Positions 1-20,402 of a stretch of DNA of 29,689 bases are shown here, in pieces. A program made the position numbers and the translations under genes. Under the pieces are notes generated by a model. It was not told where the DNA came from. It did no database searches and worked only from the letters and a program-made list of their open reading frames with translations. The stretch is from positions 1-29,689 of the IMG/VR virus record IMGVR_UViG_3300025759_000464. One strand, 5' to 3'. Position 1 is the first letter of the stretch. The number at the start of each line of letters is the position of its first letter. The DNA is from a virus.

Positions 1-202
1 AAGTTTCTGATAATATTTCTAATATTTTATTAAAAGCTTTTACTGCAAGATTAGCTTTAAAAATACTATTTAAACTAAACATTGATTTACCTGCAGCTTT
101 AGCTCCTTCTTGTATACCTTTAAGACCTAAACCTACTGTTTGTAGATTTTTTTCAGCATCTTTAGCTTTTACGTTAATTTCAATATCTATTTCTTTAGCC
201 AT
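1..202 (-). CDS. Tail tape measure protein, N-terminal part (cut by window edge)
   Basis: Only the first 67 codons are inside the window; the gene continues past position 1. The visible sequence begins MAKEIDIEINVKAKDAEKNL and continues as an amphipathic, Lys/Ala-rich helix followed by a more hydrophobic stretch (about residues 43-64). This is the usual beginning of phage tape measure proteins, which set tail length and form a helical bundle inside the tube. The ATG overlaps the stop of the preceding 46-aa gene (TAATG), so translation is probably coupled. Position at the end of the tail module, after chaperone and tail-tip genes, fits. The fold cannot be confirmed without the rest of the gene. 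Confidence 0.72.
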   Translation of the reverse strand, partial: MAKEIDIEINVKAKDAEKNLQTVGLGLKGIQEGAKAAGKSMFSLNSIFKANLAVKAFNKILEILSET

Positions 203-1221: not shown

Positions 1222-4200
1222 TTATGGACATGCTGGACAACTTGTCGGTCCTGTTAAAGTATTTGTTGATGAATTCCAGAAATAATATTCCCCAAAGTTT
1301 ACAGAGAAATATCTATCACTACCATATAGTGCAGTACAAGTATTATTTGTATATATAACTGTAGCTGTTGAAATATCATTGCTATCCATGTAAATAGTTC
1401 CTGTTCTAGTTGTATTACAACATACAGTTTCTGCATCTATTGTTGATGCGTACATTACTTGACTTCCACAACTGATTGTTGTTGTAGTAGTTGTAGTTGT
1501 AGTTGTAGTACAAGAACCAGTAATTGAACCATAACTTGTAGGTGTTTCTACATAATCTGTACCTTGTATGTCATAACAATTAGAACCATCAGTTGAAATT
1601 GTAATATCTATATCACCTACTTGATAACCTGCGTCTAATTGTACATAAGTTACAAATGAATCACTTTGTCTTTCTACTACAAACACATTATCATCTGGAA
1701 CTACTACTGGACATCCTGTTTCTCCTGTATCTGTTACTGTACCTACTGAAGCTCCTGTTTGTGTTATACCTACTACAATATAATCTATTCCTCTTGCTTG
1801 AACTCTTCTGTTTGTTGGAAGTGTAATTGCAGTTGTAGTTTCACCTGTTCTATATCCAAATGTATTGTCTGTACATTTTTTAAGATCGTAGTAATAATCA
1901 CCTGTACAATCGTTACAAGTATTAAATCTAGGATAATCATAAGTTAATATATCATTTACACATGTTTGTGAATCTACCCAAGCAGTATCTTGATTTCCAG
2001 ATGTAAACTGTGGATTACTATAACAATCACCATTATATTCAACTACTGATGGGAATGAATCCGTACTATTACCAAATTTAACTGTTGAGTCTAAACCTGT
2101 TAAACAATCTGTATACTGTCTCCAAACACTTAATGTAGGTTTAGTTGGTGCAACACACGCTGGCGGCTCTGGTTTAGTAGGACATAAGTCTGCATTCTCC
2201 CATACCTGCAAGCTAGCTGGTTCGTAATATCTGTAATTTACTAAATCTGTATAAAAACCTTCTGGTGCTCTATTAGTAGTTCCCACATTTGCAGCACTTG
2301 TGTACATATGGTCATTAGATGTAGCCGAAGTTAATGTTTTGTTATTATCAAAATAATAAAACCCTTGTACTCCTCCTTCATCACAATAGTCTTGTAATGG
2401 ATTAAATCCTTGTCCTAAATAAAATAACACGTTTGCATCTACACAAGTTGTACATACACTAAAGCTAGTTCCATTCCAATATCTTCTTTTTGTGTTGTCT
2501 GAATCTAATGAATAATAACCTACTGCAGCAGATACTACTGAACAAACCCCTGTTGTAGTTGGTCCTACATAATTATAAAGCTCTGTAGCAGAACAGAAGT
2601 CACTTTGATTTACTGGATCTATATTTGCTCCATCTATATAATAAAAACCTTTGCTTTGTTCTGCTTCACATACATCATTAAATGAACTATATCTTAAATA
2701 AGCCACACTCTTGGTTTCTAAACAAGTGTCTACAGGCTCAATAACACCTGTACAATTCACACAGCCAGTTCCTTCTGGTGATCCTACTGTTATACCACTG
2801 TTAGTAGCCCAATCTGTTTCAAAGGCTGTTGAGCTAGTATAATAACATTGTCCATTTATTTCTATATAAGAACCTGTTGTAGTACTTCCCACTGTAAATG
2901 TTTCTCTTGATCTTATATATATAGTCTGTGCTTCTACTGATGTGTCTGGACATCCTGTAACTATATAGTAATTGTAAACTATTAATTGAACTTCTCCTGT
3001 TCCAAATACAGTTGTAACTGTTTGACTTGTGGTAAATGTTCCTCCTGCATTATTTACTGATGGTTTGTTTCCTACCCATTCATATCCACTATTTAACTCT
3101 ACATCTGAATTGAAGGTAAACACTGTTCCTGCCGCTTGTGACTTAACAAGACCGCTTTGATCTCCAATTATCTCATATCCTGCTGATGGTCCTGTAATGT
3201 TACTTGTATTTATTGCAAGCGTTATATCTATAAGAGTTGCAGTTGACCAAATTATGCTATGAGTATCTTCTGCTGTTATTGTTCCATCTGTTGCTACTAC
3301 TCTATAAGTTCTAGTTCCAGCTGTTGACTCTGTAAACTCTACTTGATAACAATCATTTGCATCTACACAGTATGTTGTACCTGATCCTTCTAATGCACCA
3401 CCTGACCACGTATAGCTTGTTGGTGTAAATCCACTAGCAACAGCACCTAATACTACATTGTTGTTAATTGTTTTTTGTGTCGGTCCACCTATATTAACAA
3501 AATCATCAGTTAATTGCACTGTTCCAGATAAAGTTGTGTTTACAGTTATATTTGCAGAACCCACTGTTCCCTGTGCATTTTGTATTGAAGGTCCTGATGT
3601 AAATTGATATCCGTTGTTTGGACTAACTAATGTGTTAAATGAATATAAATCTCCAGTCTGTAAAGATAATTGGTCCCCAGTTTGGTTTCCTGTAATGTTA
3701 TACCCTGATGCATCTCCTGATATAGAGTTCACTACATTTAAAGTTATTATATATTTTTTAGGAGTCCATAATACTGTGGTTGTATCACTAAATTCTTCAT
3801 CATCAAAATCATCTGTTACTGTACACGTATAAGATACATTTCCTGTATTGTTATTTGATATTGTTATTTCATCTGTTGTTAATCCTTCAGCTTCTCCCCC
3901 ACTCCATAAATAACTAGCTGTTCCAATTACGTTAAACACTTCTGTTGTTAATGTTATGTTTTCTGTTTGCTCTTTAGTTGTTGGACCGCTTATTACGACC
4001 TCTCTTACAATAGGTGTATAAAAAACATCATGTGTGTCTGCAAACTCTGCTCCATCTGAATCATCTGTTGCGGTACAAGTGTAAGTAACTGTTTGTGATG
4101 TGTTATTTGTAACAGTGATTTGTGCTGTTGTTAATCCATCTGAATTACCTTCGCCATTATCTGACCATAAATATGTTGCAGTACCATCAAACCCTAATGC

Positions 4201-6504
4201 TGTTGCTGTTAGTGTTATGTTTTGTCCTTGCTGCACTTCTTCGTTTCCAGTTATTATAAGGCTTCTTTCTAAATCACATGTTACATCTGCTGTTGGTGTA
4301 TTACCATCTACTGTACAAAAAGAAGAATCAGCCGTACATTCAAAACATGCATTAGGATCTGTTGTGGTGGTCGTAGTTGTACTAGGTGTAGAACCACCTA
4401 CAGAAACAGTTAATTCATTAATTAATTCTAACTTACTTCTTCCGTTATTAAAATCAGTTTCAATTTCATTTATAGTATAGTTTCTGTCGTTAATTGCTAT
4501 TGTATCTGAAAGAACTAACTGCTGTAGCATTTTTAAAGGTAGGTAAGCAAATACTGTAGTTAACCTTCTATCGCTTTCAAATACTTGTGAAATATAATTT
4601 TTGTAATACACTTTAAATAAAGTGTCGTTAAAATCATCTGTAGCAGTATACTCATTTAGCTCTTTTTTAAAATGTAAATTAATTAACGTTTCATCTGGAT
4701 CTATACTAAAACTATTAGAAGGTATATTGTATTCTGTTATGTCTTTAAAGTTTACATCTTCTACATCTGGACTTCCTGCATTTTTTGTAATTAAAAACCT
4801 TATGTTTGTTGCTGATGTTTGCCTGTGACTATAAAACATTAAGGGTTTACCAAAGTAAGGTGAATTGTTATCATTTACAAACCATCCAACTTGTGCACTT
4901 ATAGGTGTTGTTACATCATTTAATCTTTCAAACTTCATATGCTCAAATGGAAGCTCTACTTTATATGTTTCAGGATTAGCATCAAAATAACTATTACCTC
5001 TATACTCTTCTGTTCCCCAACTTATGTTGCTTAATTGTTCATGTTGAGTTGCTAGTTTTGTGCCAAGACCTTCATATTTAAACTCTACTTCTTTATAAGG
5101 TAACGCAACATCTACACTTGATTGTGTCGTATCTACATAATTAGTAACATCCCATACAACATCTGATTCACTATAGAACTGATCTAATGTTTTTATAACT
5201 ATAGTACCGTTATCTGTATAAGCTGTAAGATTAAACATTTTAAATATACCAGTTAAGAAATCTATAACTTTCATTTCTGGTATTTGTTGAGATATTATAA
5301 ACTGTCTTGTATTAGTAAATGAATATGTACTTGTTAAGTTGTACTCATAACCACTTCCTGAAGGATAATAAGATGGGTTTAAACTTAAACTTGTGTCTGT
5401 GTTTAAATCAAAACTTGAAGCACTAGAAGTCATATAAATTGTATATGTTCCGTTGCCTAGAGTTCCAGATAAGTTTCTAAAACTTGATGATATAGTTTTT
5501 TGGTCATATAATTCGTTACCGTTTCTATATATGGTTATTGTTGCATTTATATTTGTTGTTGCTTGTATGTCTAAAGAATATTCTAAATATCCACCATTAG
5601 GTATGTTTTGAACTACAAATCTATCTCCATAACTTGTTACTTCTGGAATTTCTTGATTGTAATTTATTTCAAACCCAGTAATCTGTTTTGTTACCTGTGT
5701 TTCTTCAAACACGTCACCTTTCTTCCTATGTAACCACATATATAAACCATAGTAAGCTTCATTAGTTATATTAAAGAAATCTGTACTAAACGTTAAACTA
5801 TATTTATCCTCTATGGCTTTTACTATAGCATCTGCTTTTATAGCATACTTTAACTCTTCCCAATAAACACCTTGATGACTAGCGTTAGAATTAGATGATC
5901 CATAATTATATAAGTTACCTCCATCTGCGTCTGGATAATCTGCAGTTTCTGATGACTGATAATAAAGTCTTGTAGTGTGTGATATTAATGGTGCTATTAT
6001 ACCTCTTGGATAATTTAATGTAGAGTTATCTGATCTTGTATATGTTTTTATTAAACCATTTGTTAATGCGTTTTTTACTGTTGTTGCATTATATGTTGTA
6101 TCAAAAGCTGTAAGGTCTAATGAACTTAAATCATCATCCCCTATTAAGTCTTTTAAATCTATTGTGTTTGCAAAGAATGTTATTCTATATGAATTAGGTT
6201 CTCCGTCTTCTAAATCTACTCCGCTTAATTTTATCTTACCAGTTTTAAATGGTCTGCTGTTTAATTCTATTACAGCATCTTTTTTTAATCTTGCATCAAA
6301 TCCATTAGTAATAGAGTAGTTATAATAATGTTTAAATATCTTGTTGTTTGTTTTAGAAGCTGGAATATCAAACGTTCTAGAGAAGTCTACAAATATCTCT
6401 GATATATCTTTAACGTTTTGAATTGACTGAACTACATTTATAGACTCGTCATTAAACAAATCTACTCTTGTTCCTTCTATGTATAACTGCAAGTATGCTT
6501 TCAT
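1222..6504 (-). CDS. Large modular tail-tip / adhesin protein (1760 aa)
   Basis: The longest gene in the window. Residues 1-705 form a non-repetitive part starting MKAYLQLYIEGTRVDLF, probably the baseplate or tail-tip anchor. A run of seven Thr (709-715) then leads into beta-rich modules. Ig-like modules lie near 748-831, 834-916 and 1003-1089, each with GPTT/GNEE starts and YLW or YTW strands. A different module with GYNITG/GYEIIG and NNGY/NSGY motifs lies near 917-1000 and 1090-1178. Residues 1180-1660 are Cys-rich and contain a tandem duplication (about 1265-1352 and 1355-1445). A second linker of eleven Thr (1666-1676) precedes a Cys-rich C-terminal domain ending CPACP. This build is typical of phage proteins contacting the cell surface. 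The start overlaps the preceding stop by 1 nt (TAATG); the glycosyltransferase-like gene follows after 1 nt. Confidence 0.75.
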   Translation of the reverse strand: MKAYLQLYIEGTRVDLFNDESINVVQSIQNVKDISEIFVDFSRTFDIPASKTNNKIFKHYYNYSITNGFDARLKKDAVIELNSRPFKTGKIKLSGVDLEDGEPNSYRITFFANTIDLKDLIGDDDLSSLDLTAFDTTYNATTVKNALTNGLIKTYTRSDNSTLNYPRGIIAPLISHTTRLYYQSSETADYPDADGGNLYNYGSSNSNASHQGVYWEELKYAIKADAIVKAIEDKYSLTFSTDFFNITNEAYYGLYMWLHRKKGDVFEETQVTKQITGFEINYNQEIPEVTSYGDRFVVQNIPNGGYLEYSLDIQATTNINATITIYRNGNELYDQKTISSSFRNLSGTLGNGTYTIYMTSSASSFDLNTDTSLSLNPSYYPSGSGYEYNLTSTYSFTNTRQFIISQQIPEMKVIDFLTGIFKMFNLTAYTDNGTIVIKTLDQFYSESDVVWDVTNYVDTTQSSVDVALPYKEVEFKYEGLGTKLATQHEQLSNISWGTEEYRGNSYFDANPETYKVELPFEHMKFERLNDVTTPISAQVGWFVNDNNSPYFGKPLMFYSHRQTSATNIRFLITKNAGSPDVEDVNFKDITEYNIPSNSFSIDPDETLINLHFKKELNEYTATDDFNDTLFKVYYKNYISQVFESDRRLTTVFAYLPLKMLQQLVLSDTIAINDRNYTINEIETDFNNGRSKLELINELTVSVGGSTPSTTTTTTTDPNACFECTADSSFCTVDGNTPTADVTCDLERSLIITGNEEVQQGQNITLTATALGFDGTATYLWSDNGEGNSDGLTTAQITVTNNTSQTVTYTCTATDDSDGAEFADTHDVFYTPIVREVVISGPTTKEQTENITLTTEVFNVIGTASYLWSGGEAEGLTTDEITISNNNTGNVSYTCTVTDDFDDEEFSDTTTVLWTPKKYIITLNVVNSISGDASGYNITGNQTGDQLSLQTGDLYSFNTLVSPNNGYQFTSGPSIQNAQGTVGSANITVNTTLSGTVQLTDDFVNIGGPTQKTINNNVVLGAVASGFTPTSYTWSGGALEGSGTTYCVDANDCYQVEFTESTAGTRTYRVVATDGTITAEDTHSIIWSTATLIDITLAINTSNITGPSAGYEIIGDQSGLVKSQAAGTVFTFNSDVELNSGYEWVGNKPSVNNAGGTFTTSQTVTTVFGTGEVQLIVYNYYIVTGCPDTSVEAQTIYIRSRETFTVGSTTTGSYIEINGQCYYTSSTAFETDWATNSGITVGSPEGTGCVNCTGVIEPVDTCLETKSVAYLRYSSFNDVCEAEQSKGFYYIDGANIDPVNQSDFCSATELYNYVGPTTTGVCSVVSAAVGYYSLDSDNTKRRYWNGTSFSVCTTCVDANVLFYLGQGFNPLQDYCDEGGVQGFYYFDNNKTLTSATSNDHMYTSAANVGTTNRAPEGFYTDLVNYRYYEPASLQVWENADLCPTKPEPPACVAPTKPTLSVWRQYTDCLTGLDSTVKFGNSTDSFPSVVEYNGDCYSNPQFTSGNQDTAWVDSQTCVNDILTYDYPRFNTCNDCTGDYYYDLKKCTDNTFGYRTGETTTAITLPTNRRVQARGIDYIVVGITQTGASVGTVTDTGETGCPVVVPDDNVFVVERQSDSFVTYVQLDAGYQVGDIDITISTDGSNCYDIQGTDYVETPTSYGSITGSCTTTTTTTTTTTISCGSQVMYASTIDAETVCCNTTRTGTIYMDSNDISTATVIYTNNTCTALYGSDRYFSVNFGEYYFWNSSTNTLTGPTSCPACP
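1477..1509 (-). repeat. Poly-threonine codon run (11 Thr)
   Basis: Eleven consecutive ACN codons (mostly ACA/ACT) encode residues 1666-1676 of the adhesin, flanked by Cys on both sides (GSC before, ISC after). The repeat unit is a codon, so gain or loss of units would change linker length without breaking the frame. Threonine runs of this kind are common O-glycan acceptor linkers in other proteins. Confidence 0.85.
2170..2712 (-). repeat. Tandem duplicated Cys-rich module inside the adhesin
   Basis: Two adjacent modules of about 88-91 residues (1265-1352 and 1355-1445) align: SVAYLRYSSFNDVCEAE with NVLFYLGQGFNPLQDYCDE, then SKGFYYIDGAN with VQGFYYFDNNK, then VGYYSLDSDNTKRRYWN with EGFYTDLVNYRYYEP. 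The copies are diverged at DNA level, so the duplication is old. Confidence 0.7.
2971..4263 (-). repeat. Alternating Ig-like and second beta modules in the adhesin
   Basis: Residues 748-1178 hold five modules of about 80-90 residues in the order A-A-B-A-B. Type A shows ITLTA/ITLTT, TATYLWS/TASYLWS/TSYTWSG and YTCTATDD/YTCTVTDD/YRVVATDG strands. Type B shows SGYNITGNQTG against AGYEIIGDQSG and NNGYQF against NSGYEW, followed by NAQGT or NAGGT. Type A resembles PKD/Ig folds and type B resembles listerial-type beta repeats. Assignment is by eye. Confidence 0.65.
4360..4380 (-). repeat. Poly-threonine codon run (7 Thr)
   Basis: Seven ACN codons (residues 709-715 of the adhesin) follow SVGGSTPS and precede DPNACFEC. 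They mark the boundary between the anchor part and the Ig-like modules. All four ACN codons are used, so the Thr run is kept at protein level rather than being a recent simple-repeat expansion. Confidence 0.8.
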
Positions 6505-7979: not shown

Positions 7980-8428
7980 ATTGTCATATCGTTTTGTACT
8001 TGTACATCAAATGTTGCTACCCATCCTGCTAGCTTGTTTTCAAATCTATCTACAAAAGGCTCACAAGTTACATCTGCATCTACTTGATACTTTTCTGAAT
8101 ATAAATCTCCTCTTTGTAGTAATGCCATTAATCTATCTAATACTCCTAGCTGTGTGTTTAGCACATCTTGCTCATTATCATTACCTCTAAATAAATCTGT
8201 TGTTTCTTCTTTGTTTATGTCTACTATATCCATACACATAACTGAAATATTAAACGTAAGTATTTTTGGGTTTATAGTACATTGATTAACCATTACGTGA
8301 GATAAAGGAAATATTGTTTGTTTGTTCAGATCTACATTATCAAAGCTACCATATGATACGTTGTTAACGAATGGTTCTGCTTCTAGTGTTTCTTTAATCT
8401 TTGTTGTTAAATCGTAAAATCCTGTCAT
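7973..8428 (-). CDS. Tail completion / tail terminator candidate (151 aa)
   Basis: Starts MTGFYDLTTKIKETLEAEPF, with an N-terminal helix, then beta strands (PKILTFNISVMCMDIVDI) and a helix-strand C-terminal part ending in FDVQVQNDMTIC. Size and helix-strand order match phage tail terminator proteins (lambda gpU-like), which cap the tail tube, but no motif is diagnostic. The ATG overlaps the stop of the frameshifted chaperone reading frame as ATGA (8425-8428). That overlap is strong support for the -1 frame being a real upstream coding sequence. Confidence 0.5.
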   Translation of the reverse strand: MTGFYDLTTKIKETLEAEPFVNNVSYGSFDNVDLNKQTIFPLSHVMVNQCTINPKILTFNISVMCMDIVDINKEETTDLFRGNDNEQDVLNTQLGVLDRLMALLQRGDLYSEKYQVDADVTCEPFVDRFENKLAGWVATFDVQVQNDMTIC

Positions 8429-9173
8429 CTGGTTTTCTGTTTAATTAAATTTCTTTCTGTTTGTAATTTGTCTTGCTCATATGCTAAATAATATAAAGAT
8501 GAATGTACATTTAATTCACTGACAGATTCAAGTTTGGTTGCATCTCCTCCAGCCAATCTATATAACGAGTTATACCATCCCCACTTCCTAGCAAATCCTC
8601 CCTCTGTTGAATAGTCATCCCCTTGATCGCTTCTTGATTCAAAGATTTCAGGATAGTTTTCAGTAATTCGTTCTTTAAATTGTAAAAAAAAAGTATAGAA
8701 CCCATAACTATATCAAGCGGCATCTGTTTATATTTTTCAGAATCTTCTGATCCTTTATAGTCTTCTATTAGGTATTTATCTTTTAGTGTGTCTTTTATTG
8801 GTCTGTATAATACTGCCATAGCTTTATGCATCTTGCTCCAATCTCCTAGCGTAGTATCTAGGTCAATATACTCTCCTAAAGTAATTTTGTCTAAATCAGG
8901 AATAAAACCATAAGCAACACCATCCATTGTAAAAGTAGGTACAAGCTTTGCATCCTTATTAAACATATCATTTATTATTCTTACTATCTCCATTACACTA
9001 TTAAATTGTACTTTAATTACGTTCTGAAGATTTAGATTACAGAATATTTCTACTGTCTTATGTAATAGGAAATTAGAGTTCTGATTAGCTTCTGTGTTTA
9101 TCTTTTCGTACTTCTGGTATTGCTCTAGACTAATCTCTCTTAAAGATTCTGGTACTTGTATCTTAACTTTCAT
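8425..9173 (-). CDS. Tail assembly chaperone, frameshifted long form (GT-type, about 249 aa)
   Basis: Long product of a -1 shift: codons 1-163 of the 220-aa gene are read in frame zero. The ribosome (or polymerase) slips at the 9-T run 8684-8692, and reading continues from 8685 in the -1 frame for 86 codons to a TGA at 8425-8427. The extra part begins LQFKERITENYPEIFESRSD and contains WGWYNSLYRLAGGDATKLE and LYYLAYEQDKLQTE, which read as good helical protein. A TGA in the -1 frame lies about 25 nt upstream of the T run, so entry must occur between there and the zero-frame stop. The -1 frame ends in an ATGA overlap with the next gene. This matches the lambda G/GT scheme, in which the long form bridges the tube protein and tape measure. 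No experiment supports the shift efficiency. Confidence 0.78.
8511..9173 (-). CDS. Tail assembly chaperone, short form (G-type, 220 aa)
   Basis: Zero-frame product, MKVKIQVPESLREISLEQYQ at the start, then predominantly helical. It contains a LILFF-like hydrophobic stretch at residues 158-164 where the slippery run lies, and ends NLNLSVN. It is the first gene after the terminator at 9206-9232 and carries the ATTGTTATAAT sequence directly before its ATG. Its length and helical character fit tail assembly chaperones, which coat the tape measure protein before tube polymerisation. The gene is separated from the tape measure gene by about 8 kb, farther than in lambda, because the adhesin and related genes sit in between. 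Confidence 0.7.
   Translation of the reverse strand: MKVKIQVPESLREISLEQYQKYEKINTEANQNSNFLLHKTVEIFCNLNLQNVIKVQFNSVMEIVRIINDMFNKDAKLVPTFTMDGVAYGFIPDLDKITLGEYIDLDTTLGDWSKMHKAMAVLYRPIKDTLKDKYLIEDYKGSEDSEKYKQMPLDIVMGSILFFYNLKNELLKTILKSLNQEAIKGMTIQQREDLLGSGDGITRYIDWLEEMQPNLNLSVN
8684..8692 (-). promoter_or_regulatory. Slippery T9 run, probable -1 frameshift site
   Basis: On the coding strand the sequence reads ATA CTT TTT TTT TAC. Nine U's let both P- and A-site tRNAs re-pair after a one-base backward slip; the same run could also cause transcriptional slippage. It is the only such run in the stretch where both frames are open. Confidence 0.75.
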
Positions 9174-9205
9174 ATTATAACAATAGTTATTTCAGTTTTT
9201 TGTAT

Positions 9206-19675: not shown

Positions 19676-20050
19676 TTAATTAGACTTGTTGTTTAGTTTC
19701 TCAAACGTTCTCATTCCTCCAAGTCCTAACATACCAACTAATACTGTCATTAAATGTTCCATTTGTAGTGCTGGTGGAACTTGCTCTTGTCCTAAAAACC
19801 ATATCAATAAATCTCTTAATACAAAGTTATAAGCTAATGCTACACCACAAACCCATCCTATGAAAGGTCTCCATCCAGCTACGAAGATTGTTCTGTGCTG
19901 TGCCTCTACTTTATTTATCTCTGATTGTAATTCTATTAATTGTTGTGGATCTATTTCTTTTCCCTTGATAAGCTCTCTTATCTCCATACCTAGTCCACCT
20001 ATATCAGATTGACTTTGTAAACCTAATAGTTTTTTTAATAGTTTAAGCAT
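19676..20050 (-). CDS. Holin of the GTA 3TM type
   Basis: A 124-aa membrane protein. A charged N-terminal helix (about residues 1-55) is followed by AGWRPFIGWVCGVALAYNF (58-76), the recognisable core of the GTA_holin_3TM family. RDLLIWFLG and a last helix MTVLVGMLGLGGMRTFEKLN (101-120) complete three membrane segments. Holins form pores that let the endolysin reach the peptidoglycan. It overlaps the endolysin gene by 8 nt, as expected for a lysis cassette. Confidence 0.8.
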   Translation of the reverse strand: MLKLLKKLLGLQSQSDIGGLGMEIRELIKGKEIDPQQLIELQSEINKVEAQHRTIFVAGWRPFIGWVCGVALAYNFVLRDLLIWFLGQEQVPPALQMEHLMTVLVGMLGLGGMRTFEKLNNKSN

Positions 20051-20402
20051 ATGTCCAAATTACTTTTTGTGTTTTTGTAGGATCACTGTCTACGTGTATA
20101 AACGTATTAGCAACACCTATCCTATAGAATCCAGCTTTAATAAGTGCTGATAGTATTTCGTATCTATACGTGCTGGATGTTGCATGTATATCGGCAGCGA
20201 ATCCTCGTAAATGTGACGAGTTCTCTGATCCTCCCACTTTTTCATTATGCTCTTCAGTTCTGAATCCTGAATTAATTTTAAATGGTATTCCTGCAATTTG
20301 ACGTGCATGGTTGAGCATGCGGAGAAAAGTTGGATCCATATTACGACCACTATCAGGAAAGTCAGGCGAGTCAAATTCACTGTATGTAAAATAAGATTTC
20401 AT
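20043..20402 (-). CDS. Endolysin, M15-family peptidase (D-Ala/L-Ala-D-Glu type)
   Basis: A 119-aa zinc peptidase of the M15A (Peptidase_M15_3) type. It has INSGFRTEEHN (residues 43-53), SSHLRGFAADIH (62-73) with zinc ligands H64 and D71, and FIHVD (101-105) with the third ligand H103 and D105 close to the active site. It lacks a signal peptide, so it depends on the holin. It would cleave peptide bonds in the cell wall. In the +1 frame a lipoprotein-like reading frame (20117-20380) is nested within it. Confidence 0.88.
   Translation of the reverse strand: MKSYFTYSEFDSPDFPDSGRNMDPTFLRMLNHARQIAGIPFKINSGFRTEEHNEKVGGSENSSHLRGFAADIHATSSTYRYEILSALIKAGFYRIGVANTFIHVDSDPTKTQKVIWTYA

Follow-up and report, generated by a model that had tools for sequence, protein, structure and literature searches.

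Tail chaperones made in two lengths by frameshifting are already known, and the stretch of DNA analysed here (referred to as the window; 29,689 nucleotides of the IMG/VR virus record IMGVR_UViG_3300025759_000464, from a marine flavobacterial phage) raises the question of whether a run of nine Ts inside a 220-aa gene serves a similar purpose. This question has three parts, namely whether the run joins two coding frames into a second and longer protein, at what step of gene expression the slip would be made, and what the two proteins would do. In the arrangement that we propose, one gene would give rise to two proteins with a common N domain. Ordinary decoding would yield a 220-aa short form consisting of the N domain and a 57-aa tail, and a fraction of decoding events would slip by one base on the T9 run to yield a 249-aa long form, in which the N domain is followed by a helical domain carrying the motif KWGWY.

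The features of the locus are collected in Table 1. On the minus strand the run stands in the context ATA CTT TTT TTT TAC, and the 0 frame encodes 163 residues through TTT TTT before the 57 further residues of the tail. The -1 frame is entered at the codon TTA (8685) and ends in a TGA (8427-8425) that shares bases with the start codon of the 151-aa gene (ATG at 8428), while the +1 frame meets a stop two codons past the run. An earlier sequence-only reading of the window had described a -1 frame, opened by the run, with 86 residues beyond codon 163 of the 220-aa gene and an ATGA overlap of the stop with the next start; translation returned the same coordinates and the overlap is present. It had also noted a TGA in the -1 frame upstream of the run, which does exist, at 20 nt rather than at about 25 nt. 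Immediately 5' of the ATG of the recoded gene, at 9174-9190 (-), lies the sequence TATTGTTATAAT, AT-rich variants of which recur in relatives and which is a possible promoter-like or leaderless-start signal.

Table 1. Features of the recoded locus and its neighbours in the window
Feature	Positions	Strand	Remarks
0-frame ORF, 220 aa	8511..9173	-	N domain (residues 1-163) and 57-aa C-terminal extension; putative short, gpG-like product
T9 run, putative slip site	8684..8692	-	x TT TTT TTT TAC in the 0 frame; includes T TTT TTT
-1-frame coding part, 86 codons and TGA	8425..8685	-	LQFKERITENYP...KWGWY...IKQKTR; C-terminal domain of the putative 249-aa fused long product
TGA shutting the -1 frame 5' of the T9 run	8713..8715	-	from -1-frame translation
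ATGA, fusion stop overlapping the next gene's start	8425..8428	-	overlap shared by 113 of 179 non-redundant relatives
Next gene, 151 aa	7973..8428	-	same place in the relatives inspected; phrog_30964 (E 6.5e-13), PHROG function unknown
Conserved neighbour, 176 aa	7449..7979	-	phrog_29822, PHROG function unknown
Tape-measure-like gene, first 67 codons, cut by the window edge	2..202	-	75-82% identical to open frames of 552-586 aa from four relatives

Conservation of the T run among relatives

The relatives comprised 296 loci, 185 of them non-redundant (<90% identity), and included the cultured phage P12024L and a chromosomal prophage; the sets of relatives overlap and their counts are lower bounds. 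The run was T9 or T10 in all 296 loci, with T9 in 161 and T10 in 24 of the non-redundant ones. Comparison with relatives had been named in advance by the sequence-only reading as the check on its proposal, and neither a relative lacking the run nor a stop in the -1 frame of the relatives was found. A query with the fused protein recovered 38 IMG/VR loci of 37-96% identity, all 38 of which had exactly T9 in the same phase and both frames open. A DNA motif representing the KWGWY domain of the -1 frame, from which the run itself was excluded, identified at least 120 loci, and among the matches listed, 80 of 80 carried T9 or T10 upstream together with a 0-frame ORF in the -1 relation. When an N-domain motif scan and profile HMMs were applied to the fetched loci, 203 of 204 pairs of N and C domains stood in the -1 relation (the exception being L218), and none of the 204, a set that includes loci from the N-domain motif, was a single-ORF fusion. 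A junction scan in which each of the two Phe codons could also be TTC yielded 156 sites, every one with T9 or T10; TTC accounts for 21% of the Phe codons in other long ORFs of these phages.

The cultured relative, Nonlabens phage P12024L, has been counted among siphoviral isolates (PMC8776804). Its gp40/gp41 (phrog_32199 and phrog_38404) are direct homologues of the two parts, carry the T9 in an identical phase and lie directly after the large terminase gene; they differ in being annotated as two hypothetical proteins, in a 0-frame tail of only 25 codons and in being ~31-41% identical to the present gene. The expectation that a standard gene caller would miss the second part was right in substance, the -1 part of P12024L being annotated only as the 55-codon fragment gp41. 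Among genome contigs, a motif scan returned four genuine matches in Bacteroidota MAGs and four chance ones, and the four genuine matches agree with the T-run arrangement, as does a prophage in a 3.9-Mb Flavobacteriaceae chromosomal contig (L337). When 397 Flavobacteriaceae and 395 Bacteroidota genomes were searched with HMMs, clear matches came only from three (G015, G222 and G233), indicating a phage-borne gene that is seldom integrated.

Coding in both frames past the run

Past the run, the 0 frame of the relatives mostly continues for 55-57 codons and the -1 frame for 82-86 codons, and the overlap contains no stops in either of these frames as against 6.8 per overlap in the +1 frame. Substitutions were counted in 69 sister pairs. 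By 0-frame codon position they were distributed as 333/559/580 in the overlap and as 654/403/1796 in the part that encodes the N domain only, and by -1-frame codon position as 106/55/249 in the part that encodes the C domain only. The overlap pattern departs from the N-only pattern (P 6e-76) and from the C-only pattern (P 2e-15), and both single-frame patterns are rejected. Judged by these substitutions, both frames past the run are under purifying selection, and since neither single-frame pattern fits, the 57-aa tail of the short form is under selection as well. The conserved glycines of this tail may owe their conservation in part to WGW, which the -1 frame encodes.

With T9 or T10 kept at every related locus, we regard it as almost certain that the gene makes two products by programmed recoding at the run, and the proposal of the sequence-only reading that a -1 shift fuses the 0-frame and -1-frame domains is upheld by these comparisons. 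Three simpler accounts were weighed. Homopolymers are error-prone, and two long-read 'plasmid' records in PLSDB carry T8 and T7 at the run; however, an account by sequencing or assembly error, or by decay of the gene, is refuted by the comparative data and has practically no standing, as 296 loci, drawn from independent samples and including a cultured phage and a chromosomal prophage contig, share one phase, and selection acts on both frames. The -1 domain could instead be a separate gene with its own start, for which the run would be irrelevant, and in favour of this the annotation of P12024L treats gp41 as an ORF of its own with 55 codons, and some ATG, GTG or TTG precedes WGW in 63 of the 185 non-redundant loci. 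Yet no such codon is found in the other 122, only 5 loci have an ATG 5' of the conserved FF, the FF-L junction is itself conserved, and single-chain homologues exist, a fold search of BFVD having detected at least nine proteins of 226-280 aa that are matched by both the N and C models and thus hold both domains in one chain; this account is rejected as extremely improbable. Phase variation in the DNA, with replication slippage switching between T9 (short) and T10 (fused), is likewise rejected and is very improbable. Its support comes from three IMG/VR loci (L343 at 1580, L344 at 3220 on the minus strand and L345 at 2226) with T10 or T11, in which one extra T places both domains in one ORF, and from L218, whose run is one T short of that in its relative L203. 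A mixture of states would be predicted, whereas the fused state was seen in 3 loci against at least 120 shifted loci at matched motif stringency, and the N domain of L344 is broken, so that errors are likely. The three fused loci, L218 and the PLSDB records with T8 and T7 were treated as errors or rare variants.

The two PLSDB records, CP045836.1 (L340 and L342; Lysinibacillus pakistanensis) and NZ_CP040811.1 (L341; Escherichia fergusonii), share 99.7% identity over 6.4 kb and are long-read versions of a single phage of the flavobacterial group; CP045836 consists of two ~33-kb units in tandem. Both have other homopolymer breaks and look like contamination or assembly artefacts.

Run length and the step at which the slip is made

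The T run is able to begin at any codon position, and the codons on its two sides compensate for one another. In the 5 loci with AGT or GGT as the first codon, and so a single T from it, TTT TTT is always followed by a codon beginning with TT, and in L189, where the codon after the run is CTG and contributes none, the first codon is TTT. If the flanks were independent, 5.4 runs shorter than nine would be expected among the 185 non-redundant loci, and none was present (P<5e-5). By this measure the flanking codons hold nine Ts in place, and it is the length of the run that is conserved and not the heptamer T TTT TTT. A counterpoint is that the coding of Leu/Val-Phe-Phe-Tyr by itself favours Ts around the run.

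Long T runs are avoided elsewhere in these phages. In other ORFs of at least 150 aa (1.13 Mb), two T9 runs were found against 17 expected under synonymous shuffling, and the ratios of observed to expected runs in phases 0, 1 and 2 were 0.12, 0.23 and 0.17 for T8 and 0.19, 0.00 and 0.10 for T9, a depletion of 4- to 10-fold or more in every phase. The in-phase heptamer T TTT TTT (T7) occurred 91 times against 138 expected, no worse than in the other two phases. Avoidance that depends on the length and not on the phase of a run is what slippage by the polymerase predicts; replication slippage could also cause T8 and T9 to be avoided elsewhere, but would not explain why the recoded gene must keep nine. 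In bacterial genomes, selection against slippage-prone runs typically sets in at nine A/T, and a run of this kind is used by mxiE of Shigella flexneri, one of the T9/A9 genes with transcriptional slippage and thus a precedent (PMC1088944). There, addition of a non-templated U within a U run connects two overlapping ORFs (mxiEa and mxiEb) and the product is likewise longer than the standard one (PMC1088944), although mxiE is a bacterial regulator and not a phage assembly gene, and slippage in the present gene is predicted from its sequence.

On this basis the slip is somewhat more probably transcriptional than not: RNA polymerase would add one U to give U10, and ribosomes would then read the fusion in frame. 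Alternatively, as in lambda G/GT, the ribosome could shift by -1 on T TTT TTT and give the same two products, with the Ts beyond the heptamer being incidental or serving to raise efficiency, and this we hold to be possible but rather less than probable. The in-phase canonical heptamer is available at every related site, as any T9 guarantees, and -1 ribosomal shifting, with lambda as the precedent, is the rule for tail-chaperone genes (PMC5009743). However, T7 would suffice for a ribosomal slip, yet the flanks compensate to exclude any shorter run than nine, and in-phase heptamers are tolerated in other genes without special avoidance. Folding of the downstream sequence, with pseudoknots left out, did not detect a stimulatory structure either in 60 loci (mean folding z 0.00 and 0.17) or in the window (z +1.5). 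Lambda-type frameshift sites need not have a downstream stem-loop or pseudoknot. Since at least nine Ts are kept in any phase and an RNA stimulator was absent from the folded sequences, transcriptional slippage is favoured over ribosomal slippage rather than proven, and the two may act together. The lambda-like frameshift implied by the sequence-only reading thus stands in its -1 direction and would probably have to be modified in its mechanism. From the sequence we infer that both forms are expressed, in a ratio that would be determined in transcription rather than in translation.

The tail-chaperone reading and the gene neighbourhood

The 0-frame ORF matches phrog_32199 (E 2.9e-19, residues 4-170) and the -1 domain matches phrog_38404 (E 1.2e-4). 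The AF2 model of the N domain has a mean pLDDT of 85, and that of the C domain is all helical (pLDDT 77). Sequence searches of the PDB with both profiles gave no match, no Pfam family exceeded the cut-off, and nothing rose above noise in a fold search of the PDB (best VIA, Z 2.5). Weak matches were obtained to a BFVD fold named 'Tail assembly chaperone protein' (A0A8S5V8Z8; E 0.012, prob 0.99), to the profile phrog_166, 'tail protein', in 11 of 67 N domains, and to Phage_TAC_7 in 2 of 67 members (E 0.01).

In relatives with enough downstream sequence and in the prophage L337, the recoded gene is followed by genes of ~150 aa, ~170 aa, ~310-380 aa and ~670-1760 aa, a tape-measure gene of ~530-650 aa, a protease gene, a scaffold-like gene and the capsid gene, and the tape-measure counterparts in a relative and in the prophage match PHROG tape-measure profiles (E 1.8e-7 to 4e-5). 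The position upstream of the tape measure, as claimed earlier, is thus borne out; the two genes are not adjacent, five genes and ~8 kb lying between them in the window. The 151-aa gene is possibly a tail terminator.

Lambda gpG/gpGT, a pair with conserved counterparts among long-tailed phages, resembles the present pair in having a short form and a -1-shifted long form with a common N domain, in belonging to a long-tailed phage and in being encoded upstream of the tape measure. In contrast to lambda, no sequence relation to gpG/gpGT was detected, the site is a T9 or T10 run instead of the lambda heptamer, four to five genes intervene where lambda has the pair directly upstream, the 0-frame overlap of 55-57 codons is conserved, and the slip is probably transcriptional. 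In a lambda-type pair the short form is in large excess and both forms are absent from virions, the short form binding the tape measure and the long form the tail tube protein. By analogy, the short form here would serve as a coat for the tape-measure protein, and the long form, the scarcer of the two, would bring in tail-tube subunits.

The siphophage context of the gene, the conserved gene order towards the tape measure and the weak fold and profile matches make a tail-chaperone function likely. Of the G/GT identity assigned by the sequence-only reading, the two-length -1 architecture is therefore retained, and the chaperone part is suggested by this context. A programmed pair with another role, in which the two lengths belong to some other factor in head-tail or tail assembly, is unlikely. 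It would accord with the lack of Pfam, PDB or PDB-fold matches, with the genes that separate the recoded gene from the tape measure and with the unknown function of both phrog_32199 and phrog_38404; the tail-chaperone matches, however, are weak but specific, a two-length frameshift layout upstream of the tape measure is found in a siphophage, and between the two genes no other tail-chaperone candidate was recognised in the gene order of the relatives or in the prophage. Taken as a whole, the reading that in a large group of marine Bacteroidota siphophages the tail-chaperone pair arises by transcriptional slippage on an invariant T9-T10, with the ratio of short to long form set by RNA polymerase and not by the ribosome, is put forward tentatively.

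What appears to be new is the gene family, the invariance of its T9/T10 and the argument from sequence that transcriptional slippage operates in a tail-chaperone role; a literature search, mostly outside subscription journals, found no paper on this family or on transcriptional slippage in a tail chaperone. The phrog_32199 and phrog_38404 families would accordingly be read as one recoded gene with a probable function, present in hundreds of marine viral contigs, and could be annotated by a simple rule, in which KWGWY is sought in the -1 frame 25-40 codons past a T9/T10 run. An abundant phage group would, if the slip is transcriptional, be an exception to the ribosomal setting of tail-chaperone ratios.

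Several other features were observed. In Flavobacterium phage 6H, gp10 (L339, 10352-10927) is a distant structural match located upstream of the 6H tape measure; it breaks off early, with an apparent continuation in other frames at a site that is not T9, and is possibly another recoded or misannotated tail chaperone. The 1760-aa tail gene of the window (1222-6504, -) has Ig/PKD-like repeats and Thr runs past residue ~710, and as its counterparts in relatives can be as short as ~670 aa, a long and variable adhesin-like insert seems to have been added to it. Between this gene and the tape measure lies a 294-aa gene (336-1220, -), present in close relatives and missing in more distant ones, which by eye is possibly a glycosyltransferase. 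Finally, an 87-codon ORF (20117-20380, -) lies out of frame inside a 119-aa gene (20043-20402); its start resembles a signal peptide, it includes a possible lipobox (LFSACS), and it could encode an embedded outer-membrane spanin.
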